From positions 3,782,001-3,846,000 of the forward strand of contig NC_010175.1 of NCBI RefSeq assembly GCF_000018865.1: a stretch of 64,000 nucleotides of DNA, written 5' to 3'. The translations under genes and the position numbers were made by a program. Shown here one piece after another: positions 21,926 through 57,603 of this stretch. The DNA comes from Chloroflexus aurantiacus J-10-fl (GTDB lineage Bacteria; Chloroflexota; Chloroflexia; Chloroflexales; Chloroflexaceae). Each line of letters starts with the position of its first letter. Position 1 is the first letter of the stretch. The notes under the pieces are model-generated. The model saw only the letters and a list, made by a program, of their open reading frames with translations, did no database searches and was not told where the DNA came from.

Positions 21926-21940
21926 TTGACTTCGGCTGAG

Positions 21941-21969
21941 AGTATAGCACAGGTTGCCAAAATGTGCAA
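21941..21969 (-). promoter_or_regulatory. sigma-70-type promoter of tRNA-Asn
   Basis: On the minus strand TTGCAC (21969-21964) and TATACT (21946-21941) are separated by 17 bp. The -10 ends 16 bp before the mature tRNA 5' end. Confidence 0.75.
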
Positions 21970-22132
21970 GTGGTAACAAACGTCGGGTGACAAGTGATTT
22001 CTGGCGCATTCTGATGCTGAAAGCTAACTGCAACATCGTAGACACACAGACAAACAATTGCGCAGCCGTTTGCAGACAACGACTGCGCCTGGCGAAGGGA
22101 ATGCCGGCATATGGTAATATGCCGACGAACGG

Positions 22133-22384
22133 TTACTCGGCGCTCGTACTCTCACTCTTGCCATTGCGCTCGGCCTCGTACCGTTCAGCCAGTTCGCGCA
22201 GCGCAGTGAAGAGTTCGACATCAAGCAGAACGCCGGCTGGATAGCCTTTCTGAGTGACGATAATCGGTTGGTGGGTAGCCTGCGAGCGCTTGATAAGCGC
22301 AGCAAGCGACGATGCCGCCTTTGAGATGGGAACAACACCCTGTCGCAGATCGACGTTGAGCAGGTTTTTGGTGATGTCTGACAT
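22133..22384 (-). CDS. orphan Phd/YefM-type antitoxin-like protein
   Basis: The 83-residue protein shows the Phd/YefM N-terminal pattern (VVPISKAASSLAALIKRSQATHQPIIVTQKGYPAGVLLDVELFTAL), a DNA-binding dimer fold, followed by a charged C-terminal tail (ERYEAERNGKSESTSAE) that would wrap a toxin. No RelE/Doc-like toxin gene lies on either side, so it may be an orphan or act on a distant partner. The start at 22384 follows CGGAG; a longer start at 22423 is less likely. Confidence 0.85.
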   Translation of the reverse strand: MSDITKNLLNVDLRQGVVPISKAASSLAALIKRSQATHQPIIVTQKGYPAGVLLDVELFTALRELAERYEAERNGKSESTSAE

Positions 22385-22399
22385 TGTCTTCTCCGTTTT

Positions 22400-22489
22400 A
22401 CAAGTAACAACTTGTTTTAGCACCCTCGATACCTGTTCGTGGGTTTGTGATGGTCAAGGTTGAGAAAAGTAGATAGTAGCAATCTACTT
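22400..22489. promoter_or_regulatory. two short palindromes upstream of the antitoxin gene
   Basis: ACAAGT/ACTTGT (22400-22415, 4-nt spacer) and AAGTAGAT/ATCTACTT (22467-22489, 7-nt spacer) lie in the divergent region between the antitoxin gene and the transglycosylase operon. Phd-type antitoxins usually repress their own promoter by binding such palindromes, so these are candidate operators. This is inference. The 233-bp gap holds nothing else recognisable. Confidence 0.4.
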
Positions 22490-22617
22490 AACATGCACAC
22501 GCGGCAAACAAAAAACCGACACAAACAGGAATCAAATATTGCGACTTCTGCGATAGTATAGCGCACGATTTACCAAATTTCAACCCTCGAATGTCTATAT
22601 AATTGTTGGGATGGTAT

Positions 22618-23730
22618 ATGACGGACTTCTTGACTCTTCAGCATGGCCAGTTATCCTTACCGACATTTTTGCCCGATGCAACCTTTGGCACGGTGCGCGC
22701 AGTTGATAGCCGTGATCTCAGCGAAGCCGGTATCAGAGCGTTGGTCATGAATGTCTTTCATCTCATGCAACGTCCCGGTAGTTCGACGATCACCGCCTTA
22801 GGAGGGTTGCACCAGATGACAGCCTGGTCGGGGCCAATTGTGACCGATAGCGGTGGTTTTCAAGCCTATTCGCTGATCCGAAATAATTCCAAACAGGGTC
22901 GGATTACCGATCAGGGGTTAACCTTTCAACCAGAGGGGGCTGAACGGCGGTTTCAACTGACGCCGGAGAAGAGCATTCAACTGCAATTGAGCTATGGCGC
23001 TGATATCGTCATTTGCCTTGACGATTGCACACACGTTGACGACCCACCTGCCGAACAGCGCCGTTCGGTTGAACGGACGATTCGCTGGGCCCGTCGCTGT
23101 CGGCAGGAATTTGATCGTCAGGTAGCACAGCGCCGACGCCAGGGTCCGCCACCATTGCTCTTTGCTGTGGTACAGGGTGGGGGCGATCTGCATTTGCGCG
23201 CCGAGTGTGCAGCCGCACTTCTCGACATTGGGTTCGACGGATTCGGGTTTGGGGGATGGCCGCTCGATGCCCAGGGCCAACTTCTCGATGAGGTGCTGGC
23301 GTTCACCCGTGATCAAATTCCCGCTCGCTTTCCTATGCACGCGCTGGGGGTTGGACACCCGGCCAGTGTAGTGGCCTGTGCCCGGATGGGTTACGACATC
23401 TTCGATAGTGCATTACCGACCCGCGATGCTCGTCAGGGGCGTCTGCTGGCGTTTACGGCTGATCCGCAGCGACCGGGCTTCCAATTGCGCGGTGATTGGT
23501 TTACCTATGTTTATCTGGCCGACCGCAAGCATGTGAAAGCTGATACACCAATCTCGCCGGGATGCCAGTGCTTTACCTGTAGCCGGTACAGTCTGGGGTA
23601 TTTGCATCATCTGCACAAACTGGGTGAGACGCTGGTCTTGCGATTGGCAACCATCCACAATCTCCACTTCATGGCGCAGTTGATGGAGCTGATCCGGCAC
23701 GAACGGAGAGGATCGCAAGCTAATGACTAA
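22618..23730 (+). CDS. tRNA-guanine transglycosylase paralogue
   Basis: The 370-residue protein has the whole transglycosylase core. VTDSGGFQAYS and ICLDDCT carry substrate-pocket aspartates, FDSALPTRDARQG carries the catalytic aspartate, and the zinc site C-x-C-x2-C-x25-H (CQCFTC...IH) matches the family exactly. The loop that in bacterial Tgt reads GG(L)(A/S)VGE is here GGWPLD, so base recognition may differ from preQ1. I take the ATG at 22618; a TTG 15 nt upstream is in frame. It overlaps the following rRNA methyltransferase gene by 8 nt. Confidence 0.93.
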   Translation: MTDFLTLQHGQLSLPTFLPDATFGTVRAVDSRDLSEAGIRALVMNVFHLMQRPGSSTITALGGLHQMTAWSGPIVTDSGGFQAYSLIRNNSKQGRITDQGLTFQPEGAERRFQLTPEKSIQLQLSYGADIVICLDDCTHVDDPPAEQRRSVERTIRWARRCRQEFDRQVAQRRRQGPPPLLFAVVQGGGDLHLRAECAAALLDIGFDGFGFGGWPLDAQGQLLDEVLAFTRDQIPARFPMHALGVGHPASVVACARMGYDIFDSALPTRDARQGRLLAFTADPQRPGFQLRGDWFTYVYLADRKHVKADTPISPGCQCFTCSRYSLGYLHHLHKLGETLVLRLATIHNLHFMAQLMELIRHERRGSQAND

Positions 23731-26225: not shown

Positions 26226-26295
26226 GGGAAGTATATCACATTGAGGAGGAGAGAGCTTCAACAGCGATCCGTGATGGGGGCCATAATCTACGTAT

Positions 26296-26925
26296 CGCCT
26301 GTTGGCGTGCAGCAGTTGTGTTTTCGTCCAGCCTATGCTTCGGAACAGAGGCGCGTGGTCTGCAACCGCGCTGGTCGCCGTGATTGAGAGGCTCTTGCCA
26401 GGGTGACAGCACGTGCTGCCTGCAAAGTCGTGCCTGCGCAGTGAATCACGTGTGGCCTGTTGGGAGTGCGGTAGTCGTGTTTTCGTCCAGCCTATGCTTC
26501 GGAACAGAGGCGCGTGGTCTGCAACCGTGCTGGTCGCCGTGATTGCGAGGCTCTTGCCAGGGTGACAGCACGTGCTGCCTGCAAAGTCGTGCCTGCGCAG
26601 TGAATCACGTGTGGCCTGTTGGGAGTGCGGTAGTCGTGTTTTCGTCCAGCCTATGCTTCGGAACAGAGGCGCGTGGTCTGCAACCGTGCTGGTCGCCGTG
26701 ATTGAGAGGCTCTTGCCAGGGTGACAGCACGTGCTGCCTGCAAAGTCGTGCCTGCGCAGTGAATCACGTGTGGCCTGTTGGGAGTGCGGCAGTTGTGTTT
26801 TCGTCCAGCCTATGCTTCGGAACAGAGGCGCGTGGTCTGCAACCGCGCTGGTCGCCGTGATTGAGAGGCTCTTGCCAGGGTGACAGCACGTGCTGCCTGC
26901 AAAGTCGTGCCTGTGCGATGAATTG
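26296..26925. repeat. four tandem copies of a 159-bp repeat
   Basis: TTTTCGTCCAGCCTATGCTT recurs at 26321, 26480, 26639 and 26798, giving an exact 159-bp period. Copies differ at a few positions (for example CCGCGCTGG versus CCGTGCTGG). Each contains the 12-bp palindrome CAGCACGTGCTG and a GGGAGTGCGG segment like the core of the other hairpin elements. Because 159 is divisible by three, an open frame persists across the minus strand, but it has no ribosome-binding site or protein-like character. The remainder of this 1.08-kb gap is the S1 promoter and leader. Confidence 0.88.
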
Positions 26926-35659: not shown

Positions 35660-35956
35660 CTATCTTCTATCTTCTATCTTCTATCTTCTATCTCCTATCT
35701 TCTATCTCCTATCTTCTATCTCCTATCTTCTATCTCCTATCTTCTATCTCCTATCTTCTATCTCCTATCTTCTATCTCCTATCTTCTATCTCCTATCTTC
35801 TATCTCCTATCTTCTATCTCCTATCTTCTATCTCCTATCTTCTATCTCCTATCTTCTATCTTCTATCTCCTATCTTCTATCTCCTATCTTCTATCTCCTA
35901 TCTTCTATCTCCTATCTTCTATCTCCTATCTTCTATCTCCTATCTTCTATCTCCTC
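35660..35956. repeat. heptanucleotide tandem repeat, about 42 units
   Basis: TATCTTC and TATCTCC units alternate almost without error for nearly 300 bp. The tract runs into the 3' end of the debranching-enzyme gene and encodes its last residues (EEIEDRR then stop). It resembles the short tandemly repeated heptamers known from cyanobacteria. The 590-bp gap also holds a partial GGGGCG/CGCCCC-type repeat near 35547 and no gene. Confidence 0.93.
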
Positions 35957-39656: not shown

Positions 39657-42600
39657 ATGACGGTCGTTCCTCTCCCGCGTCCTGCGTTTCCACTGCCGCT
39701 TCCTCGTTCACCGATAACGCTGTTACCTCTTTCCCTGCTGCTTGTGCTCTTACTCGCAGCAATCCAGCCGCTCGTTGTGTTCATAGCGCCAGTGCTACCA
39801 TCGACAACCACCCCGGCACTCCCCTACGCTCGCACCGATAGTAACGTCTTCATCGAAAATTGGGGGCAGTTCGACCCTGCGTTTGTGGCGATACTGATAG
39901 GCCAGGATGCCCGGCTGGCCGTGGGGCACGATGGACGATTGCACCTGCACGTGGATGGGGCAGCCCCCCTGACCTTCACTGCTGCCGGAGTGACCACCAC
40001 GCCTGACGTCAGCCTGCACGGGCCACTGGCAACGACAATATCGTTCCTGACCGGTAATGATCCCAATCAGCACGTGAACGTGCCGGTGTGGGAAGTGGCA
40101 CGGCTGGCGCTGACGCCAGGGGTGACGCTGGAACTGACGGTAATTGACGGGCGGTTGCGTCTGTGCGCACGTACCGCCGACCCGACGCTGCTCAACCGTG
40201 TGCAGATGCAGGTCAGCGGTGGTGAGGTAATCGGGATGGTGGATGGGGAACTGGAGGTGCAGGCCGGAGCGCACCGCCTGCGTCTGCCGCTGCTGGAAGC
40301 GGTCACACCAGCCGGTATTCCCCATCAGCAAACCTTCTCACCGGCTATCGCACCGGATGGCGTGGTACGGGCACCGGTTGGCATACCAGAAGGGATAGGC
40401 ATTACCGGTCAGGCCACACCCACCCAGACCAGTGCGGCAATGCTGCTGGGAGCGAGTACGTTTGTGGGAGGAGCGGCTGGTAGCGGCGAAGACACCGCTA
40501 CGGCAATGGTCATAGACGGGCAAGGGGCTGTATATGTAGCCGGGAATACCGGATCTGCCGACTTCCCCACCACGCTGGGGGCGTATGACAGGTCGTTGAA
40601 TGGAGGTGATCGTGGTGACGCCTTCGTGAGCAGGTTGAGCGGCGACCTGCGCAACCTGCTTGCCGGTACCTTCCTCGGCGGGAGTGATTGGGACGAAGCC
40701 AATGATCTTGCGTTGGACGCGCAGGGGAATGTCTATGTGGCAGGAGAGACCTCTTCCACCGACTTCCCCACCACGTTGGGAGCGTATGATAGGACGTACA
40801 ATGGTGATGGCAGCGATGTGTTCGTAAGTCGCTTGAGCGGTGACCTGGGCAGCCTGCTCGCCAGTACGTTTCTCGGTGGGAGTTATTGGAACTTCGCCGG
40901 CGCCCTCGCGCTGGACGGGCAGGGCACTGTCTATGTGGCAGGAGGGACCTCTTCCACCGACTTCCCCACCACGTTGGGAGCGTATGATAGGACATACAAT
41001 GGTGGTAGCAGCGATGTGTTCGTAAGTCGCTTGAGCGGTGACCTGAACAGCCTGCTCGCCAGTACCTTCCTCGGTGGGAGTGCTTGGGACTCTGCCACCG
41101 CCCTCGTGCTGGACGGGCAGGGGAATGTCTACGTGGCGGGGGAGACTGGGTCTGCTGACTTCCCCACCATGGCGGGAGCGTATGATGGGTCTTATAATAG
41201 TGGTGACAGGGATGCATTTGCGAGCAAGTTGAGTGGTGACTTGGGAAGCCTGCTCACCAGTACGTTCCTCGGCGGGAGTGATTGGGACGTCGCCACCGCC
41301 CTCGCGCTGGATGGGCAGGGCACTGTCTATGTGGCGGGGTATACCTCTTCCACCAATTTCCCCACCACGTTGGGAGCGTATGATAGGACGTACAATGGTG
41401 GTAGCAGCGATGCGTTCGCGGGCCGCTTGAGCGGCGACCTGGGCAGTCTGCTTACCAGTACCTTCCTCGGCGGGAATGACTCTGAATACGCCCTTTCCCT
41501 CGCGCTGGACGGGCAGGGCGCTGTCTATGTGATGGGGGAGACCGGTTCTACTATCTTCCCCACTACGGCGGGGGCGTATGATAGAGTGTACAATGGCGGT
41601 TACAGAGATGCGTTCGTGAGCCGCTTGAGCAGCAACCTGGGCAGCCTGCTCGCCAGTACCTTCCTCGGCGGGAGTGGTTGGGACGTCGCCATCGCCCTCA
41701 CGCTGGACGGGCAGGGCACTGTCTATGTGGCGGGGTATACCTCTTCCACCAATTTCCCCACCACGTTGGGAGCGTATGATGGGTCTTACAATGGTGGCGA
41801 CAGGGATGCATTCGCGAGCAAGTTGAGTGGTGACCTGGGCAGTCTGCTTACCAGCACCTTCCTCGGCGGAATGTTTGGGAATGGAAATGATGTCGCGAAC
41901 TCGTTAGCGATCAGCAGCCAGGACACTGTCTATGTGGCGGGGTGGACTGGTTCTGCCAACTTCCCCACCACAGCAGGGGCGTATGATGGGGTGTTCAATA
42001 GAGGTTTCAGAGATGCGTTCGTGAGCCGCTTGAGCAGCGACCTGGGCAGCCTGCTCGCCAGTACGTTCCTCGGTGGAAGTGATTGGGACGTCGCCACCGC
42101 CCTTGTGCTGGACGGGCAGGGGAATGTCTACGTGGCGGGAGAGACCTGGTCTGCCAACTTCCCCACTACGGCGGGGGCGTATGATAGGACGTACAATGGT
42201 GGTGCCAGAGATGCGTTCGTGAGCAAGTTGAGCGGCAACCTGGGCAGCCTGCTCGCCAGTACGTTCCTCGGTGGGAGTGATTGGGACTCTGCCACCGCCC
42301 TCGCGCTGGACGGGCAGGGGAATGTCTATGTGGCGGGGGATACCTATTCCACCGATTTCCCTACCACGGCGGGGGTGTATGATAGGGCGTACAATGGTGG
42401 TGGCAGCGATACGTTCGTGAGCCGTTTAAGCGGCGATCTGGGAGGCCTGCTTGCCGGTTCCTTCCTCGGCGGGAGTCTCCCCGACAGTGCTACCGCCCTC
42501 GCGTTGGATGGGCAGGGGAATGTCTATGTGGCGGGATGGACTGACTCTGCTAACTTCCCTACTACGGCGGGGTCGTATGATGGGTCGTTCAATGGTAGCG

Positions 42601-43529
42601 ATGGGTTCGTGAGTAAATTGAGTGGTGAGCTGCGCAGCCTGGTTGCCAGCACCTTCCTTGGCGGGAGCATTGATGAAAGCGCTACCGCTCTCACACTGGA
42701 CGGGCAGGGCAATGTCTATGTGGCAGGAGAGACCTCTTCCACCGACTTCCCCACCACGTTGGGAGCGCATGATAGGACGTACAATGGTGGTGGCAGCGAT
42801 GTGTTTGTAAGTCGCTTGAGTGGTGACCTGGGCAGCCAACTCGCCAGTACCTTCCTCGGCGGGAGTGATTGGGACTCTGCCACTGCCCTCGTGCTGGACG
42901 GGCAGGGGAGTGTCTACGTGGCGGGGGAGACTGGGTCTGCTGACTTCCCCACCATGGCGGGGGCGTATGATGGGTCGTACAATGGTAGTGGTGACACCTT
43001 CGTAAGCAGATTGAGCGGCAACCTGGGTGGCCTGCTCGCCAGCACCTTCCTCGGCGGGAGTGCTTGGGACTCTGCCACCGCGCTCGCGCTGGACGGCCAG
43101 GGCACTGTCTATGTGGCGGGGTATACTGAGTCTAATAACTTCCCCATCACGGCAGGGGCGTATGGTGGGGTGTACAATGGTGATAGGGATGCGTTTGTCA
43201 GCAAGCTGGTCTTCGCCTTCACCAAAACCAGCTCGGCTGTCAGTACCACTAATCAATCCATCAATCTCACCCTCCAGTGGCAGTCGGCAGGGGCCACGGT
43301 TCATCACTATCGCTACTGCCTGGATACTAACCCTGGCTGTACGCCGACAACCAATGTGGGTGCCAACACCAGTGTGACCGTTGCCGGCATCACCCCCAAC
43401 ACAACTTACTATTGGCAGGTGCGGGCCTGCGCCGATAGCGACTGTGCAGTGTTCATTGATGCGAACAATGGGCAGCACTGGTCACTTAAGACATCTTTCA
43501 TGATATATCTAACATTTGCTGCTCGATAG
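39657..43529 (+). CDS. large secreted SBBP-repeat beta-propeller protein
   Basis: The 1290-residue protein has a signal/membrane segment (about residues 17-45, LLPLSLLLVLLLAAIQPLVVFIAP). An N-terminal beta domain of about 200 residues follows (VFIENWGQFDPAFVAIL), then 14 repeats of about 60 residues, each built on FPTTxGAYDxxYNGGxxDAFV, SxLSGDLGSLLASTFLGGS and ALDGQGxVYVAG. These are SBBP (seven-bladed-propeller-type) repeats. A fibronectin-III-like domain (SVTVAGITPNTTYYWQVRACADSDC) closes the protein, which ends IYLTFAAR. It is probably exported to the cell surface. Repeats are nearly identical at DNA level, a sign of recent expansion. GGAGAGGAG precedes the ATG. Confidence 0.93.
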   Translation: MTVVPLPRPAFPLPLPRSPITLLPLSLLLVLLLAAIQPLVVFIAPVLPSTTTPALPYARTDSNVFIENWGQFDPAFVAILIGQDARLAVGHDGRLHLHVDGAAPLTFTAAGVTTTPDVSLHGPLATTISFLTGNDPNQHVNVPVWEVARLALTPGVTLELTVIDGRLRLCARTADPTLLNRVQMQVSGGEVIGMVDGELEVQAGAHRLRLPLLEAVTPAGIPHQQTFSPAIAPDGVVRAPVGIPEGIGITGQATPTQTSAAMLLGASTFVGGAAGSGEDTATAMVIDGQGAVYVAGNTGSADFPTTLGAYDRSLNGGDRGDAFVSRLSGDLRNLLAGTFLGGSDWDEANDLALDAQGNVYVAGETSSTDFPTTLGAYDRTYNGDGSDVFVSRLSGDLGSLLASTFLGGSYWNFAGALALDGQGTVYVAGGTSSTDFPTTLGAYDRTYNGGSSDVFVSRLSGDLNSLLASTFLGGSAWDSATALVLDGQGNVYVAGETGSADFPTMAGAYDGSYNSGDRDAFASKLSGDLGSLLTSTFLGGSDWDVATALALDGQGTVYVAGYTSSTNFPTTLGAYDRTYNGGSSDAFAGRLSGDLGSLLTSTFLGGNDSEYALSLALDGQGAVYVMGETGSTIFPTTAGAYDRVYNGGYRDAFVSRLSSNLGSLLASTFLGGSGWDVAIALTLDGQGTVYVAGYTSSTNFPTTLGAYDGSYNGGDRDAFASKLSGDLGSLLTSTFLGGMFGNGNDVANSLAISSQDTVYVAGWTGSANFPTTAGAYDGVFNRGFRDAFVSRLSSDLGSLLASTFLGGSDWDVATALVLDGQGNVYVAGETWSANFPTTAGAYDRTYNGGARDAFVSKLSGNLGSLLASTFLGGSDWDSATALALDGQGNVYVAGDTYSTDFPTTAGVYDRAYNGGGSDTFVSRLSGDLGGLLAGSFLGGSLPDSATALALDGQGNVYVAGWTDSANFPTTAGSYDGSFNGSDGFVSKLSGELRSLVASTFLGGSIDESATALTLDGQGNVYVAGETSSTDFPTTLGAHDRTYNGGGSDVFVSRLSGDLGSQLASTFLGGSDWDSATALVLDGQGSVYVAGETGSADFPTMAGAYDGSYNGSGDTFVSRLSGNLGGLLASTFLGGSAWDSATALALDGQGTVYVAGYTESNNFPITAGAYGGVYNGDRDAFVSKLVFAFTKTSSAVSTTNQSINLTLQWQSAGATVHHYRYCLDTNPGCTPTTNVGANTSVTVAGITPNTTYYWQVRACADSDCAVFIDANNGQHWSLKTSFMIYLTFAAR

Positions 43530-43644: not shown

Positions 43645-44035
43645 TAGCCAATCCGCCCAATCCGCGTCCATCCGCGTACTCTGTTCAATAGAACACGGAT
43701 AAACGCGGGTTTACGCGGATACACGCGGATAATCCGCGCCAATCCGCCCAATCCGCGTCCATCCGCGTACTCTGTTCAATAGAACACGGATAAACGCGGG
43801 TTTACGCGGATACACGCGGATAATCCGCGCCAATCCGCCCAATCCGCGCATATCCGCGTACCCTGTTCATGGAACACGGATGCACGTGGGTTTACGCGAA
43901 TACACGCAGATAATCCGCGCCAATCCGCCCAATCCGCGTCCATCCGCGTACCCTGTTCAATAGAACACGGATGCACGCGGGTTTACGCGAATACACGCAG
44001 ATAATCCGCCACATCCGTGTTTATCCGCGTCCTTA
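43645..44035. repeat. CGCGGAT-type repeats, four copies of about 92 bp
   Basis: The phrase GAACACGGATAAACGCGGG or a close variant recurs near 43690, 43782, 43872 and 43963. Each copy holds inverted CGCGGAT/ATCCGCG arms. The array ends 3 bp before the stop codon of the ketopantoate reductase gene and mirrors the cluster at 39238-39575. Confidence 0.9.
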
Positions 44036-48726: not shown

Positions 48727-50004
48727 ATGATGCTGCTCGAATGGATGCTGATGGTAGCGACGATTGCACTGGCGGTTGGGTTTATCGTCAGTATGTATCG
48801 CCGACATCAGAAGAGCCATTCATCATTGGTTGACCATCCCTCTCCGCCCGGTACTCAGGAACACTCCATGATCTCATCTGCCAGATCAGAAACGATAACG
48901 TCCGATTCGCATCTTGCGTTGTTAGCCATTCATCGTCAGCCGCTCTTTCTGGCGCTGGCAGCAGCGATTGATACCGGTGTGATTGTGATCAATACCGAAC
49001 GTCGTATTGTCTTTCACAACGACACCGCGCTGCATCTCCTGGCTACTCAATCGCCGATGCAAGACAGCGGCCTGATTACACTGCTCCGCGATCATCAAGC
49101 CGATCAGTTAGCCTCTGATGTGCTTAGCGATGGAGAACATCGTGAATTGACGATCCGTCCAATCGCAACCGGGCGGACATTACATTTGCACTACGTGCCA
49201 TTGCGGGAAGGGGGCGGAAAACCGGTTGGCGCTCTGATCACGATTCGCGACCTGACGCAAATCAGTATGCTTGAACGTGCGCGGCGTGATCTGGTGGCGA
49301 ATGTATCGCACGAGTTGCGCACGCCACTGGCTTCGCTTAAGTTGCTGGTGGAGACCGTACAATCAGCACCACCCCCCGATATTGCCAGCCGTATGCTGGA
49401 GCAGATGGCGCAAGAGATTGATGCCGTCACGCAACTGGTTGACGAATTGCACGAGCTTTCCCGCCTTGAGTCGGGGCGGGTCTCGCTCAAGCTGGAACCG
49501 TTACCGGTCTGGCCGGTGATCGAACGTGCCGTTGAGCGCATTCGACCCCAGGCTGATCGTAAACAACAAGTGATCTGCGTCGAGCCGGCGGCTGATTTGC
49601 CACTGGCATTGATGGACGGTGATCGAATTGGTCAGGTATTGTTGAATCTGCTCCACAATGCGGTGAAGTTTACACCTGAAGGTGGAACCATCACGGTAGC
49701 GGCTGAGGTGCTGACCCTGCGTGATGATGAACAACCGTCACGGCCTGATCGTCCTCCGCATCCGGCGGGGACGTGGTTACTGATCAGGGTCAGCGACACC
49801 GGCATCGGAATTCCCAATCGCGATATTCAACGCATCTTCGAGCGCTTCTACAAAGTTGACCGGGCGCGCACCCGCCACGCTGGAGGTACCGGGTTGGGTC
49901 TGGCAATTGCCAAGCACCTGGTCGAGGGCCACGGTGGCCGCATCTGGGCGAGCAGTCAGGAAGGACACGGCTCGACCTTCTGGTTTACGCTACCGGCAGC
50001 GTAG
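48727..50004 (+). CDS. PhoR-like sensor histidine kinase
   Basis: The 425-residue protein has one N-terminal transmembrane helix (MLMVATIALAVGFIVSMY), then a PAS-like domain (IDTGVIVINTERRIVFHNDTALHLLA ... LRDHQADQLASDVL ... GALITIRDLTQ). The dimerisation/phosphoacceptor helix has His195 in VSHELRTPLASLKLLVE, and the ATPase domain shows N-box LLNLLHNAVKF, G1 ISDTGIG-like VSDTGIGIP and G2 GGTGLGLAIAKHLVE. It lacks a large periplasmic sensor, as in PhoR-type kinases that sense through PAS or partners. It forms an operon with the response regulator. Confidence 0.95.
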   Translation: MMLLEWMLMVATIALAVGFIVSMYRRHQKSHSSLVDHPSPPGTQEHSMISSARSETITSDSHLALLAIHRQPLFLALAAAIDTGVIVINTERRIVFHNDTALHLLATQSPMQDSGLITLLRDHQADQLASDVLSDGEHRELTIRPIATGRTLHLHYVPLREGGGKPVGALITIRDLTQISMLERARRDLVANVSHELRTPLASLKLLVETVQSAPPPDIASRMLEQMAQEIDAVTQLVDELHELSRLESGRVSLKLEPLPVWPVIERAVERIRPQADRKQQVICVEPAADLPLALMDGDRIGQVLLNLLHNAVKFTPEGGTITVAAEVLTLRDDEQPSRPDRPPHPAGTWLLIRVSDTGIGIPNRDIQRIFERFYKVDRARTRHAGGTGLGLAIAKHLVEGHGGRIWASSQEGHGSTFWFTLPAA

Positions 50005-50085
50005 AGTGGGTGCTATTGGGAGGGCAACGTCAGGGTTGTTCTGCATGGTATCTGCCGTGATCCTTACGCCGTACCCTTCAGCGCT

Positions 50086-50233
50086 CTACTGTGGTGCACA
50101 AACAATGGCCCTGGGAGCGTGCGCCTCCGGCGCGCTGATCACTTGCCACAGCTCACCGTGCCCGCTTCCAGCGGGGGATCGCCCCCACGAATCGGTACGC
50201 GACAGCGGAAGCCACATTCCCGCCCCCAGCGGG
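50086..50233 (+). repeat. left flanking direct repeat of the satellite array
   Basis: This stretch (CCCTGGGAGCGTGCGCCTCC ... CGACAGCGGAAGCCACATTC ... CCGCCCCCAGCGGG) is closely repeated in the same orientation at about 54180-54335, on the other side of the ten-unit array. Confidence 0.85.
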
Positions 50234-53200
50234 CTATGCACTACCCATAACTTGTGTCAACCACGTGCGTATCAGCGCGTGTGTATCGCTATTGGTGCTG
50301 GTTTGAGCGACTGGCCCGGTGGCAGTGCGCTGCTCAAGCCGTGCCGGCGCGTGCTGATTGATTGCCTTGCCCGCCCGTCATGCGCGTGTCGCGCAGTTTG
50401 GAGTGCGGCAGCATGGCTGCCGCGCCAGCCGCGCTCTCGATCCGGCGCGTGGCATACTGTTACCCATCCTGGTCACGGGGGTGCTGGATGGGATCGTGCC
50501 GATCATCGCGTCCGTCAGGCATGCATGCGATCCCTGCGCGTAGACGGGTATGTTGCAAAAGATTTGTGCCTGCGCACCAGCGGCCACGGCCTGCCCTGAC
50601 GGCGGTCTATGCATTACCCACAACTGGTGTTAACCACGTGCGTATCAGCGGGTGTGTATCGCTATTGGTGCTGGTTTGAGCGACTGGCCCGGTGGCAGTT
50701 CGCTGCTCAAGCCGTGCCGGCGCGTGCTGGATTGATTGCCTTGCCCGCCCGTCATGCGCGTGTCGCGCGGTGTGGAGTGCGGCAGCATGGCTGCCGCGCC
50801 AGCCGCGCTCTCGATCCGGCGCGTGGCATACTGTTACCCATCCTGGTCACGGGGGTGCTGGATGGGATCGTGCCGACCATCGCGTCCGTCAGGCATGCAT
50901 GCGATCCCTGCGCGTAGACGGGTATGTTGCAAAAGATTTGTGCCTGCGCACCAGCGGCCACGGCCAGCCCTGACGGCGGTCTATGCATTACCCACAACTG
51001 GTGTTAACCACGTGCGTATCAGCGGGTGTGTATCGCTATTGGTGCTGGTTTGAGCGACTGGCCCGGTGGCAGTGCGCTGCTCAAGCCGTGCCGGCGCGTG
51101 CTGGATTGATTGCCTTGCCCGCCCGTCATGCGCGTGTCGCGCAGTGTGGAGTGCGGCAGCCATGCTGCCGCGCCAGCCGCGCTCTCGATCCGGCGCGTGG
51201 CATACTGTTACCCATCCTGGTCACGGGGGTGCTGGATGGGATCGTGCCGATCATCGCGTCCGTCAGGCATGCATGCGATCCCTGCGCGTAGACGGGTATG
51301 TTGCAAGAGATTTGTGCCTGCGCACCAGCGGCCACGGCCAGCCCTGACGGCGGTCTATGCATTACCCACAACTGGTGTCAACCACGTGCGTATCAGCGGG
51401 TGTGTATCGCTATTGGTGCTGGTTTGAGCGACTGGCCCGGTGGCAGTGCGCTGCTCAAGCCGTGCCGGCGCGTGCTGGATTGATTGCCTTGCCCGCCCGT
51501 CATGCGCGTGTCGCGCAGTGTGGAGTGCGGCAGCCATGCTGCCGCGCCAGCCGCGCTCTCGATCCGGCGCGTGGCATACTGTTACCCATCCTGGTCACGG
51601 GGGTGCTGGATGGGATCGTGCCGATCATCGCGTCCGTCAGGCATGCATGCGATCCCTGCGCGTAGACGGGTATGTTGCAAGAGATTTGTGCCTGCGCACC
51701 AGCGGCCACGGCCAGCCCTGACGGCGGTCTATGCATTACCCACAACTGGTGTCAACCACGTGCGTATCAGCGGGTGTGTATCGCTATTGGTGCTGGTTTG
51801 AGCGACTGGCCCGGTGGCAGTGCGCTGCTCAAGCCGTGCCGGCGCGTGCTGATTGATTGCCTTGCCCGCCCGTCATGCGCGTGTCGCGCAGTTTGGAGTG
51901 CGGCAGCCATGCTGCCGCGCCAGCCGCGCTCTCGATCCGGCGCGTGGCATACTGTTACCCATCCTGGTCACGGGGGTGCTGGATGGGATCGTGCCGACCA
52001 TCGCGTCCGTCAGGCATGCATGCGATCCCTGCGCGTAGACGGGTATGTTGCAAAAGATTTGTGCCTGCGCACCAGCGGCCATGGCCAGCCCTGACGGCGG
52101 TCTATGCATTACCCACAACTGGTGTTAACCACGTGCGTATCAGCGGGTGTGTATCGCTATTGGTGCTGGTTTGAGCGACTGGCCCGGTGGCAGTGCGCTG
52201 CTCCAGCCGTGGTATCACGTGCTGAATGGGTTGCCTTACACGCGCATCATGTGTGTGTCGCGCGGTGTGGAGTGCGGCAGCCATGCTGCCGCGCCAGCCG
52301 CGCTCTCGATCCGGCGCGTGGCATACTGTTACCCATCCTGGTCACGGGGGTGCTGGATGGGATCGTGCCGATCATCGCGTCCGTCAGGCATGCATGCGAT
52401 CCCTGCGCGTAGACGGGTATGTTGCAAGAGATTTGTGCCTGCGCACCAGCGGCCATGGCCAGCCCCTGACGGCGGTCTATGCATTACCCACAACTGGTGT
52501 TAACTACGTGCGTATCAGCGGGTATAACCGCTATGGGTGCTGTTGTGGGCGACTGACCCGGTGGCGGGGCGCTGCTCCAGCCGTGGTATCACGTGCTGAA
52601 TGGGTTGCCTTACACGCGCATCATGTGTGTGTCGCGCGGTGTGGAGTGCGGCAGCCATGCTGCCGCGCCAGCCGCGCTCTCGATCCGGCGCGTGGCATAC
52701 TGTTACCCATCCTGGTCACGGGGGTGCTGGATGGGATCGTGCCGATCATCGCGTCCGTCAGGCATGCATGCGATCCCTGCGCGTAGACGGGTATGTTGCA
52801 AGAGATTTGTGCCTGCGCACCAGCGGCCACGGCCAGCCCTGACGGCGGTCTATGCATTACCCACAACTGGTGTTAACCACGTGCGTATCAGCGGGTGTGT
52901 ATCGCTATTGGTGCTGGTTTGAGCGACTGGCCCGGTGGCAGTGCGCTGCTCCAGCCGTGGTATCACGTGCTGAATGGGTTGCCTTACACGCGCATCATGT
53001 GTGTGTCGCGCGGTGTGGAGTGCGGCAGCCATGCTGCCGCGCCAGCCGCGCTCTCGATCCGGCGCGTGGCATACTGTTACCCATCCTGGTCACGGGGGTG
53101 CTGGATGGGATCGTGCCGATCATCGCGTCCGTCAGGCATGCATGCGATCCCTGCGCGTAGACGGGTATGTTGCAAAAGATTTGTGCCTGCGCACCAGCGG

Positions 53201-53971
53201 CCATGGCCAGCCCCTGACGGCGGTCTATGCATTACCCACAACTGGTGTTAACTACGTGCGTATCAGCGGGTATAACCGCTATGGGTGCTGTTGTGGGCGA
53301 CTGGCCCGGTGGCAGTGCGCTGCTCCAGCCGTGCCGGCGCGTGCTGGATTGATTGCCTTGCCCGCCCGTCATGCGCGTGTTGCGCAGTTTGGAGTGCGGC
53401 AGCCATGCTGCCGCGCCAGCCGCGCTCTCGATCCGGCGCGTGGCATACTGTTACCCATCCTGGTCACGGGGGTGCTGGATGGGATCGTGCCGACCATCGC
53501 GTCCGTCAGGCATGCATGCGATCCCTGCGCGTAGACGGGTATGTTGCAAAAGATTTGTGCCTGCGCACCAGCGGCCACGGCCAGCCCTGACGGCGGTCTA
53601 TGCATTACCCACAACTGGTGTTAACCACGTGCGTATCAGCGGGTGTGTATCGCTATTGGTGCTGGTTTGAGCGACTGGCCCGGTGGCAGTGCGCTGCTCA
53701 AGCCGTGCCGGCGCGTGCTGGATTGATTGCCTTGCCCGCCCGTCATGCGCGTGTCGCGCAGTGTGGAGTGCGGCAGCCATGCTGCCGCGCCAGCCGCGCT
53801 CTCGATCCGGCGCGTGGCATACTGTTACCCATCCTGGTCACGGGGGTGCTGGATGGGATCGTGCCGATCATCGCGTCCGTCAGGCATGCATGCGATCCCT
53901 GCGCGTAGACGGGTATGTTGCAAGAGATTTGTGCCTGCGCACCAGCGGCCACGGCCAGCCCTGACGGCGGT
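50234..53971 (+). repeat. ten-unit tandem array of a 374-bp repeat
   Basis: The core GGAGTGCGGCAGC recurs at 50400, 50774, 51148, 51522, 51895, 52269, 52643, 53017, 53391 and 53765, a period of 374 bp (once 373). Each unit runs from CTATGCA to GACGGCGGT. Units are near-identical and differ mainly at a few diagnostic sites and one exchanged block. Each contains a hairpin GCGGCAG/CTGCCGC. Since 374 is not a multiple of three, no reading frame persists across units, and the many small open frames have no ribosome-binding sites. I see no coding capacity. Confidence 0.95.
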
Positions 53972-54179
53972 GGCGATGATGCCTCCACGCAGGCTGGAAG
54001 CCCGCGCCACGGGGAACGCTTACAGCCTGATCTAACGCAGGGTGACATGTGGGTGATGTATAGCCCAGCGGGGACGAGTGAGTATAGGGCGTGTCGCAGC
54101 ACACTGCTAGACGCAGCACCATCTTCACCCTCGCTACCTGTGACCCTCACGCTGAACCTGACATCGGCGCTCTTGAGCG

Positions 54180-54335
54180 CTCCATCGTGGCGCACAAGCA
54201 CTGGTACGCCCTGGGAGCGCGCGCCTCCGGTGCGCTGACCACTTGCAACCGCCTGCCGTGCTCGCTTCCAGCGGGGTATCGCACCCACGAACCGGTGCGC
54301 GACAGCGGAAGTCATATTCCCGCCCCCAGCGGGGG
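54180..54335 (+). repeat. right flanking direct repeat of the satellite array
   Basis: This matches 50086-50233 along its length (CCCTGGGAGCGCGCGCCTCC ... GCGACAGCGGAAGTCATATTC ... CCGCCCCCAGCGGGGGCG) at roughly 80-85% by eye. The stretch between the array and this copy (53972-54179) shows nothing recognisable. Confidence 0.85.
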
Positions 54336-54345
54336 CGGGCGAGGG

Positions 54346-54515
54346 TGGGGGCGTGTTGTGGCGTTTGGAGTGCGGCAGCCATGCTTGCTGCCGCTCCAAC
54401 CGTGCTCACGATCCGGCGCGTGTTATGACGTTGATCCTGCTGGTCACGGGGATGCTGGGTGGACTCATCACGATTATGGAGTCTGTCAGTAGTTAATGAG
54501 ATAACTTCTACCCAC
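54346..54515 (+). repeat. dispersed hairpin element, diverged copy
   Basis: It contains GGAGTGCGGCAGCCATGCTTG (a longer-looped version of the array hairpin, core at 54367) and GATCCGGCGCGTG, and ends GAGATAACTTCTACCCA. The last bases, read on the minus strand, supply the TAG stop of the permease gene at 54508. Confidence 0.8.
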
Positions 54516-55266
54516 GCACGAAAAACCAGATCGTAAGCCCGATACTCAACCAGACCACGGCAGTTCGTACCCGCCCGGCATCAATCCGCCGCGCGATTGC
54601 CGCACCGCCGTAACCACCAACAATTGCGCCGCCAATCATCACCAGTGCCGGCATCCAGGCAATCAGACCGGTGGCAACGAAGGTCACAACCGCGATCCCA
54701 TTCACCAGCGCGGCCTGCAGAGTCTTTAGTGCGTTCATCCGATGGATATTGTCGTAGCCAAGCAACGACAGAGCTGCCAGGGTCAAAATGCCTAACCCGG
54801 CACCAAAAAAGCCACCGTAAATGGCAATCGCGACATAAACGATCACAACCAGCAAGCGCTGGCTACCGCCATGGGTGCCTGCCACATAACGGGTCAAGCG
54901 CGTGATCTGCGGACTAAACGTAAAGATCAGGGTCGCAAAAAGCAACAGATAGGGGATCAAGGCGGTAAATCGTCGCTCGTCGGTATAGAGCAACAGAACC
55001 GCCCCAACCAATCCACCGATCAGACTCAGCCCGCTGAAGAGCCAGATGTCACGTTGCTGACCGTGCAGTTCCTGTCGGTACGCACCAACACTGGCCAGCG
55101 TTCCCGGCCAGAGGGCCAGCGCATTAGTGGCATTGGCAACAATCGGTGGTACGCCGGCCACCAGCAGGGCCGGAAACGAAAAGAAGCTACCGCCGCCGGC
55201 AATGGCATTGAGCGCACCGGCTAGCAGTGCTGCACCAAAGATCAAACCGAGATCGAACACGTCCAT
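54508..55266 (-). CDS. TauE/SafE (TSUP) family membrane permease
   Basis: The protein of about 252 residues has about seven to eight transmembrane helices and the family features GLIFGAALLAGALNAIAGGGSFFSFPALL and VGAYRQEL in the first half, repeated in the second half (GIGGG-like FFGAGLGILTLAALSLLGYDNIHRMNALKTLQAALVNGIAV). TSUP proteins move sulphite, sulphonates or other organic anions. The ATG at 55266 follows AAAGGTG; a GTG 12 nt upstream is in frame. It lies next to a FadR-type regulator on the same strand, which may control it. Confidence 0.93.
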   Translation of the reverse strand: MDVFDLGLIFGAALLAGALNAIAGGGSFFSFPALLVAGVPPIVANATNALALWPGTLASVGAYRQELHGQQRDIWLFSGLSLIGGLVGAVLLLYTDERRFTALIPYLLLFATLIFTFSPQITRLTRYVAGTHGGSQRLLVVIVYVAIAIYGGFFGAGLGILTLAALSLLGYDNIHRMNALKTLQAALVNGIAVVTFVATGLIAWMPALVMIGGAIVGGYGGAAIARRIDAGRVRTAVVWLSIGLTIWFFVRG

Positions 55267-55296
55267 AGTACACAACACCTTTCAATTCATCTGATG

Positions 55297-56367: not shown

Positions 56368-57226
56368 GAGCCTGTTATGAACTTTGAACCATGAGAGCGA
56401 CAAACCGATGGGCCAACAAGATGGCAACGGCAACGAAATGCAAGCCGGCCAGCGTCGCTGCCACACGTTCGTCGTCACGCACCAGGCGACGGAAGCGCGT
56501 CATCCAGGCAAACCTGCGCTCGACCACCCAGCGCCGCGGCAGCAAGACAAAGCCTCGTTTGGCGGTCGGCAGCGTGACCACCGCCAGGCGACTGCCGTGG
56601 GCGGCGGCATCGGCTGCCGGTTGCTCACCAGGGTCGCCCTGGTCAACGAAGGCCACCTCTACCGTGTCGCCAGTTACCTCTTGAATGCGCTGCGCCAGTG
56701 CCGCTACCTGCGCCCGGTCTTGGTCGTTGGCTGGGGTGACCACCACCGCCAGCAGTTGTCCAAGCGTATCCACGGCCAGATGCACCGTCGAGCCGTTCCG
56801 ACGTTTGTGCCCATCGTAGCCGGCACGTCCCCCGCTTTCTGGCGTCGACTGAAGCGTCCGGCTGTCCACAATGACGGCGCGGGGCTGGGGTGTGCGGTCG
56901 GTGATGTCGCGCAGCAGCATCCGCACATCATGCACCATCTGCTCAACCACGCCCGCTTTCAGCCAGCGCTGGGTCTGTTGATACACCACGTGCCACGGCG
57001 GTACGTCGTTGGGCAGCATCCGCCACGGCGCACCGGTACGCAGAAGGTAGCGCAGCCCGTTGGAGACGTCGCGCAGGGAATAGTTCCGCTGCGGCGCTGC
57101 TTCGTCCATCAGTGTCAAATAGGGCGCAACAAACGCCCACTCTTCATCGGAAACATCACTGGGATACGCTTTTCGTGTCATAGCGTCATGATATACGAGC
57201 AGAACCGAAAAGTCCATAACAGGCTC
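56368..57226 (-). mobile_element. IS5-family insertion sequence, intact
   Basis: The ends are inverted repeats starting GAGCCTGTTATG and continuing with ACTTT after one mismatch (17 of 18). TA dinucleotides flank both ends (56366-56367 and 57227-57228), matching a 2-bp target duplication. The 859-bp length suits the IS427-like group. One transposase gene fills the element. Confidence 0.9.
56375..57181 (-). CDS. IS5-family DDE transposase
   Basis: The 268-residue protein has an N-terminal domain typical of the family (YPSDVSDEEWAFVAPYL, NGLRYLLRTGAPWRMLPNDVPPWHVVYQQTQRW). The catalytic core has the first Asp in AVIVDSRTLQSTPESGG, GYDGHKRRNGSTVHLAVDTLGQLLAVVVTPANDQDR, a second Asp in VAFVDQG, and the Glu in RRWVVERRFAWMTRFRRLVRDDE (Y/R-x-x-x-E motif). 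The reading frame appears complete. I take the ATG at 57181 because upstream codons lie outside the element. Confidence 0.95.
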   Translation of the reverse strand: MTRKAYPSDVSDEEWAFVAPYLTLMDEAAPQRNYSLRDVSNGLRYLLRTGAPWRMLPNDVPPWHVVYQQTQRWLKAGVVEQMVHDVRMLLRDITDRTPQPRAVIVDSRTLQSTPESGGRAGYDGHKRRNGSTVHLAVDTLGQLLAVVVTPANDQDRAQVAALAQRIQEVTGDTVEVAFVDQGDPGEQPAADAAAHGSRLAVVTLPTAKRGFVLLPRRWVVERRFAWMTRFRRLVRDDERVAATLAGLHFVAVAILLAHRFVALMVQSS

Positions 57227-57261
57227 TAGCCGTGCACTATTATGTTGCTGTTGTCGTGGCA

Positions 57262-57295
57262 GTCGTAGGGGCACGGCATGCCGTGCCCCTACGAC
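57262..57295. repeat. 34-bp perfect palindrome
   Basis: GTCGTAGGGGCACGGCA is followed directly by its exact reverse complement, with no loop. It lies 36 bp beyond the IS end. Similar but less perfect GTAGGGGCG repeats occur at 6136 and 35547. From here to 57603 I see nothing else recognisable. Confidence 0.9.
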
Positions 57296-57603
57296 CCCTA
57301 TCATACCAGCGCTGGCGTCCGGCGGTACATCGTTCAGGCACAGCATCAGGGTTATCGTTGGCTGGTGGGCCATGACTGCTACCCTGTTAGACTTGACATA
57401 ATAATCATGACTGCTCGTGGATGGATCGGACACCCGCAGATCACCGTGCGACCGGTCGCGTACCGTATTTGATAATCAATAATGATGCCGTGTAATTCAG
57501 TGCTCGTCGGGCTGGAGATGCGTGTTGGCCGTTCCTTTCTCGTACAATACTAGAACTTATTTCATAAAAAAGCTGTACTGTCGCGCTCTAATAACCATCT
57601 CCA

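Follow-up and report, generated by a model that had tools for sequence, protein, structure and literature searches.

How does a long, regular array of repeats come to lie on a bacterial chromosome, and does it serve the cell that carries it? This question is raised by a locus of Chloroflexus aurantiacus J-10-fl, situated in a stretch of 64,000 nucleotides (genome positions 3,782,001 to 3,846,000) that we call the window. An earlier note, based on the letters of the window, had described ten near-identical non-coding units and had considered a locus for chromosome organisation or replication, a template for non-coding RNA, or a by-product of rolling amplification. Coordinates are those of the window unless they are given as genome positions.

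The explanation that we favour, with a probability of roughly 85%, is that the array represents a non-autonomous Tn5-like mini-transposon (MITE) of the IS4 family, IS50 group, whose left 374 bp, counted from the tip, were amplified ten times between normal ends. It builds on inverted repeats, a 9-bp duplication, about 50 relatives, transposase elements, the insertion site and recurrent tip-phased amplification, all of which can be read directly from the sequence, and it takes in a seeding event, an expansion and a lack of function, which we infer.

Structure of the array

Tandem Repeats Finder reports a single array (50229-53971; period 374, 10.0 copies, 96% matches, score 6750), and cutting at the conserved start yields ten units (50234-53971), each 373-375 bp long and 90-100% identical to one another. 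The ten-unit array is thus real. The period of 374 bp given in the earlier note holds as well, except that four units of 373 bp and two of 375 bp replace its single deviant of 373 bp. Its placement of the array between a sensor kinase gene and a permease gene agrees with the gene positions listed below, and the GC-rich hairpin that it ascribed to each unit was recovered as the palindrome GCGGCAGCCATGCTGCCGC, or a close variant, in every unit. With head-to-tail copies over several kilobases (10 x 374 bp), the array is a satellite. CRISPR, BIME and other short-repeat arrays, with their spacers or clusters of REP palindromes, were considered and rejected, as the units measure 374 bp and are without spacers. 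The features of the locus are as follows:

48727-50004, + strand: sensor histidine kinase gene, convergent neighbour
50076-50233, no strand: flanking dispersed repeat, 84% identical to 54172-54333 in the same orientation; its end CCCGCCCCCAGCGGG is the target
50225-50233, no strand: left target-site duplication CCCAGCGGG, identical to 54064-54072
50234-54063, + strand: whole mobile element, 3,830 bp; ten tandem left segments, then one right segment, with terminal inverted repeats and a flanking 9-bp duplication
50234-50247, + strand: left terminal inverted repeat (tip) CTATGCACTACCCA, 1 mismatch to the family end CTATGCATTACCCA
50234-50606, + strand: unit 1, 373 bp
50607-50980, + strand: unit 2, 374 bp, starts exactly at the transposon tip
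50981-51354, + strand: unit 3, 374 bp, identical to unit 10
51355-51728, + strand: unit 4, 374 bp
51729-52101, + strand: unit 5, 373 bp
52102-52476, + strand: unit 6, 375 bp, 99.7% identical to unit 8
52477-52849, + strand: unit 7, 373 bp
52850-53224, + strand: unit 8, 375 bp
53225-53597, + strand: unit 9, 373 bp
53598-54063, + strand: unit 10 (53598-53971, 374 bp) plus right segment, one complete 466-bp mini-transposon in end-to-end alignment with about 40 dispersed copies
53972-54063, + strand: right segment, 92 bp, single copy; ends with the right terminal inverted repeat TGACATGTGGGTGATGTATAG (54043-54063)
54064-54072, no strand: right target-site duplication CCCAGCGGG, outside the right terminal inverted repeat
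54508-55278, - strand: TauE/SafE-type permease gene, convergent neighbour

The array as part of a mobile element

All array units begin exactly at a transposon tip, and the unit corresponds to the left 80% of a dispersed mini-transposon. Judged from its sequence, the array is the interior of one 3,830-bp mobile element and not a stand-alone satellite. This element shares the hallmarks of a MITE: The terminal repeat CTATGCACTACCCA at 50234 returns inverted at 54063, CCCAGCGGG flanks both sides as a target-site duplication, many dispersed copies exist without a transposase gene (50 of them full-length in the 1.79 Mb examined), and there is an autonomous partner with the same ends, though only in two degenerate copies in the C. 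aurantiacus genome and as an intact relative in an Anaerolineae MAG. The typical length of a few hundred base pairs is exceeded by the window copy (3,830 bp), while single copies (442-489 bp) comply with it. We therefore describe the window element as an amplified MITE derivative, not as an ordinary MITE.

The family became apparent when a whole-genome search with two units returned 66 places scattered round the chromosome, mostly full-length single copies with 82-90% identity. The alignment of the dispersed copies begins abruptly with CTATGCATTACCCA, the very sequence with which the array unit starts. To the right, the copies stay similar for about 92 bp past the unit end and finish with TGACATGTGGGTAATGCATAG, an inverted version of the left edge. 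Copies with both ends have a consensus length of 465 bp.

Our element census covers 1.79 Mb of the 5,258,541-bp single-contig genome (published size 5.26-5.3 Mb; PMC3150298; PMC6749651) and includes 267 of the 303 ends that match CTATGCATTACCCA with at most one mismatch. By the same measure, each of seven congeners holds 0-1 ends, and the reversed pattern, used as a control, has 0 matches in the C. aurantiacus genome. The earlier note had proposed looking for arrays of the same unit in related genomes; a similarity search of the seven other Chloroflexus genomes with the array unit matched only its 27-bp palindromic core. On these sequences, the burst of the element appears to be species-specific.

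Target duplications of 9-11 bp were found for 33 of 89 chains of ends, compared with an expectation of 2.9 and a maximum of 9 in 2000 shuffles of the pairs; 18 chains have exact duplications, where shuffled pairings predict 1.1. Among the 33 chains, the duplication measures 9 bp in 20 and 10-11 bp in 13. They include the window element and a 4-copy array at genome positions 1045612-1047120 (CTAACGATTC), while the duplication is missing in 56 of the 89 elements, an array with a 239-bp unit among them. This test pairs the outermost left end with the right end. The version with the nearest left end gives a weaker signal (11/75 versus 1.0), because many chains have several left ends.

A preferred target, CAGCGG/CCGCTG, occurs in 38 of 75 flanks, that is, in half of the simple elements and at ten times the background. 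The motifs form the centres of GC-rich palindromes, e.g., CCCGCCCCCAGCGGGGGCGGG, that are scattered over the genome. Since the preferred target is itself repetitive, the window duplication CCCAGCGGG by itself carries less weight than a unique sequence would. In five of the seven congeners, the kinase and permease genes converge, with 15-16 bp between the aligned ends; they lie apart in the other two. In C. aurantiacus they are separated by 4.5 kb, and the rest of this gap is partly repeat too, namely the two direct copies listed above. The empty site would read CCCGCCCCCAGCGGGGACGAG.

The mobilising system

An element at genome positions 766523-768006 carries the same inverted repeats as the MITE, a 9-bp duplication, GTTCCCCCC, and a transposase ORF split by one in-frame TAG. 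The transposase comprises PF14706, PF01609, and PF02281 (Tnp_DNA_bind, DDE_Tnp_1 and Tn5 dimerisation domains, respectively) and matches Tn5 transposase structures in the PDB (E 2e-41) with the D-D-E residues aligned. A second transposase-bearing element, at 21936-23100, has the same ends and is more decayed. Both are degenerate, and no intact autonomous partner was found in the C. aurantiacus genome sequence examined. Our genome collection yielded one relative when scanned: an Anaerolineae MAG encodes an intact transposase of 455 aa between CTATGCGTTACCCATAAGT and CTATGCATTACCCATAAGT. The assignment of the ends as Tn5-like is supported by this MAG, as it independently pairs the same ends with the transposase.

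The Tn5-type domains, the catalytic residues and the 9-bp duplication together are those of the IS50 (Tn5) group. A Tn5-like transposase of the IS4 family, IS50 group, is accordingly our candidate for the mover of the elements. Like IS50/Tn5, the C. aurantiacus family combines Tnp_DNA_bind, DDE and Tn5 dimerisation domains with target duplications of mostly 9 bp. It differs from IS50/Tn5 in its inverted repeats (CTATGCATTACCCA), its degenerate transposase copies, the additional duplications of 10-11 bp, and about a hundred or more non-autonomous derivatives.

Two side observations concern transposases. The Anaerolineae relative also lies within a GC-rich inverted repeat (sequence L232, 1160-1185 and 2658-2683). 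Near the array, the window contains an IS5-type transposase gene (DUF4096 and DDE_Tnp_1; 56375-57433), which is outside the Tn5-like family.

Composites and tip-phased junctions

Composites, in which at least two left ends in the same direction are followed by a single right end, are common. Of the 28 chains with at least two left ends, 13 show the duplication at the outermost left end and none at the innermost. Its restriction to the outermost left end implies that composite chains transpose as one unit, or that they arose within a transposon whose ends stayed intact. With its ten left ends and one right end, the window array is an extreme composite.

Tandem junctions were listed without the tip as a search term. 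Four of them lead from the interior of the element to base 1: 373|1 in the window array, 239|1 in a 13-copy array at genome positions 2112229-2115497, and 243|1 and 236|1 in dimers. The 13-copy array is a second satellite, composed of 13 times the left 239 bp, each from the transposon tip, and one right end. Two further duplications inside the element avoid the tip. Four junctions exactly at base 1 are rare for random breakpoints and point to a transposase-cut tip. Three of the four are confined to an 8-bp interval (236-243), which may reflect a local hotspot or a shared history. The arrays at genome positions 1045612-1047120 (348 bp) and 3001755-3003768 (384 bp) were dropped as tip-to-interior fusions, since foreign, target-like sequence precedes their inner tips; they appear to be composites. 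Single elements, left-left-right composites, dimers, and arrays of 4, 5, 10 and 13 coexist in the genome.

Two observations support growth by homologous exchange. Identical units sit at multi-unit distances, as in the pairs 3 and 10 (and, nearly identical, 6 and 8) of the window array and 3 and 9, 5 and 11, and 8 and 12 of the 239-bp array, and units are closer to each other (90-100%) than to the dispersed copies (82-90%).

The element core (about positions 107-343, with the palindrome GCGGCAGCCATGCTGCCGC) is also found in tandem arrays devoid of the tip, at genome positions 3879206-3881506, 4036997-4038587, 4248742-4250394, and 4983952-4985667. The palindrome itself was counted 163 times in 1.48 Mb (genome positions 3782001-5258541). 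Arrays of the core without the tip indicate that tandem growth does not always depend on transposon ends. An array of a different type, at genome positions 4823275-4824972, repeats whole elements plus flanking DNA with a 677-bp period.

Proposed origin of the array

Most likely, aberrant transposition gave rise to a tip-phased dimer, which recombination then expanded. The seed would be a dimer [1-374][1-465], formed when the transposase cut a left tip and this became fused to position 374 of an element copy. An element might have inserted into itself or a sister copy, with later loss or bypass of the inner right end. In one concrete version, the outer left end and the inner right end are used after the insertion, or the two right segments recombine. 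Among the elements, no nested intermediate carrying both right ends and an inner target duplication turned up. Unequal homologous exchange between units would then account for growth and partial homogenisation. The end state would be selfish DNA without a cellular function, its moving transposase presumably dead by now in this strain. Of the ideas offered in the earlier note, a by-product of amplification comes nearest to this scheme; its rolling mode is not needed, because tip-phased units and multi-unit repeats fit transposition and unequal recombination.

In its general form, the proposal is that errors of Tn5-like transposition give birth to bacterial satellites directly: A cut tip is joined to the element's own interior, the resulting dimer with one right and several left ends transposes as a unit, and recombination yields kilobase arrays. 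We advance it tentatively, as its chances may lie slightly below even. Alternatively, the MITE would be as described and its tandem duplication would go back to short homologies, at which ordinary illegitimate recombination or replication slippage took place without a transposase; recombination would again expand the array. This alternative is favoured by a short homology, GCGG, that stands just ahead of both breakpoints (cagcggg for unit 1, ggcggt for units 2-10), by the two in-element duplications that make no use of the tip, and by the abundance of tandem arrays (66 with a period of at least 60 bp in 1.48 Mb, only 3 of them with the transposon tip). Four separate junctions of the family exactly at the tip would, however, be very rare from random breakpoints over about 400 bp, and we regard this alternative as rather unlikely.

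An error in copy number during assembly or finishing deserves mention, since the published genome was assembled from Sanger reads, its repeats were finished with computer aid (PMC3150298), and the array exceeds the length of a Sanger read. The 8-kb and 14-kb libraries from which the genome was built (PMC3150298) nevertheless span the array, most units carry distinct point changes, and the family has other arrays, all of which makes such an artefact improbable.

A role of the array in the cell

No Rfam family matches the array, and only a tRNA was detected nearby; the ORFs of the array have no significant Pfam match (one insignificant), and one unit folds no better than shuffled sequence (z = -1.2). 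Long, regular and GC-rich, with a palindrome per unit, the array might suggest a functional satellite, i.e., a locus for chromosome organisation, partitioning or replication whose units are each bound by proteins. Against this, no copy exists in any congener searched, the array is one among many mobile-element insertions whose copies are dispersed rather than clustered, and the convergent genes on its two sides almost abut in relatives; we consider such a locus highly improbable. Marginally less probable still is a structured non-coding RNA or a repeat protein: The strong palindrome in each unit and array ORFs of 60-186 aa are offset by the Rfam, Pfam and folding results, and units of 373-375 bp shift the reading frame. 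The latter agrees with the earlier statement that a unit length not divisible by three is incompatible with a repeat protein, and its description of a long, regular array as non-coding stands with the Pfam result. Its ideas of chromosome organisation, a replication locus and an RNA template, by contrast, find no support in a unit that is part of a dispersed mini-transposon with a target-site duplication, is absent from congeners, and folds unremarkably.

The mini-transposon reading thus regards the array as probably selfish, functionless DNA. The lack of a recognisable protein, RNA family or unusual folding, the absence from relatives, and the location between convergent genes support this view. 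Regular non-coding arrays of this kind are not necessarily functional loci.

Relation to known systems

The closest counterparts are BrickBuilt and MITE464/PgRS of Porphyromonas gingivalis (PMC4596501), which likewise are bacterial MITEs in intergenic positions, enclose a tandem array between terminal inverted repeats, are restricted to their species, and have ends that relate them to a resident insertion sequence. They differ in their units of 23 or 41 nt and IS5-type ends, and the BrickBuilt units lie between a unique leader and tail, whereas the C. aurantiacus unit of 374 bp (or 239 bp) makes up 80% of the element, begins at the tip and belongs to ends of a Tn5-like transposase. A eukaryotic parallel is Tetris of Drosophila virilis (PMC4079207), a satellite that also arose by tandem amplification of part of a DNA transposon; Tetris is a foldback element, while the unit studied here includes the tip and its host is bacterial.

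A survey of prokaryotic satellites puts C. aurantiacus at the head of its bacteria, with 76 satellites, of which a substantial number have long repeats; the text consulted does not link these long satellites to a mobile element, and Leptospira interrogans is the only bacterium it names with families of transposed non-coding long-repeat satellites (PMC6749651). In a recent review of prokaryotic MITEs, a term search for tandem arrays or satellites came back empty (PMC10969869), and a literature text search found no paper on mini-transposons in Chloroflexus. Known already are a minisatellite within a bacterial MITE (BrickBuilt, PMC4596501) and the satellite counts of C. aurantiacus (PMC6749651). 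New are the Tn5-like family, a unit that starts at the tip and covers 80% of the element, its recurrence at separate sites, and the evidence that chains with several left ends behave as single transposons. This ties long non-coding satellites to one mini-transposon family and offers them a concrete origin, in a species already known to have more satellites than other bacteria. As several stages coexist, the route from transposon to satellite is readable and testable in a small genome.

Other tandem repeats

The 66 tandem arrays with a period of at least 60 bp at genome positions 3782001-5258541 are mostly unrelated to the element, and the chromosome seems prone to tandem duplication. Inside the window, a 14-bp repeat, CTATCTCCTATCTT, is present in 21.6 copies (35660-35955) and fits the published (GATAGRA)n satellite family Fam_1_14_23 of C. 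aurantiacus (PMC6749651). A 198-bp repeat in 13 copies (40558-43182; a multiple of three, 76% matches) probably belongs to a repeat-protein gene. Short arrays are located at 26285-26913 (159 bp x 4) and 43647-44009 (91 bp x 4).
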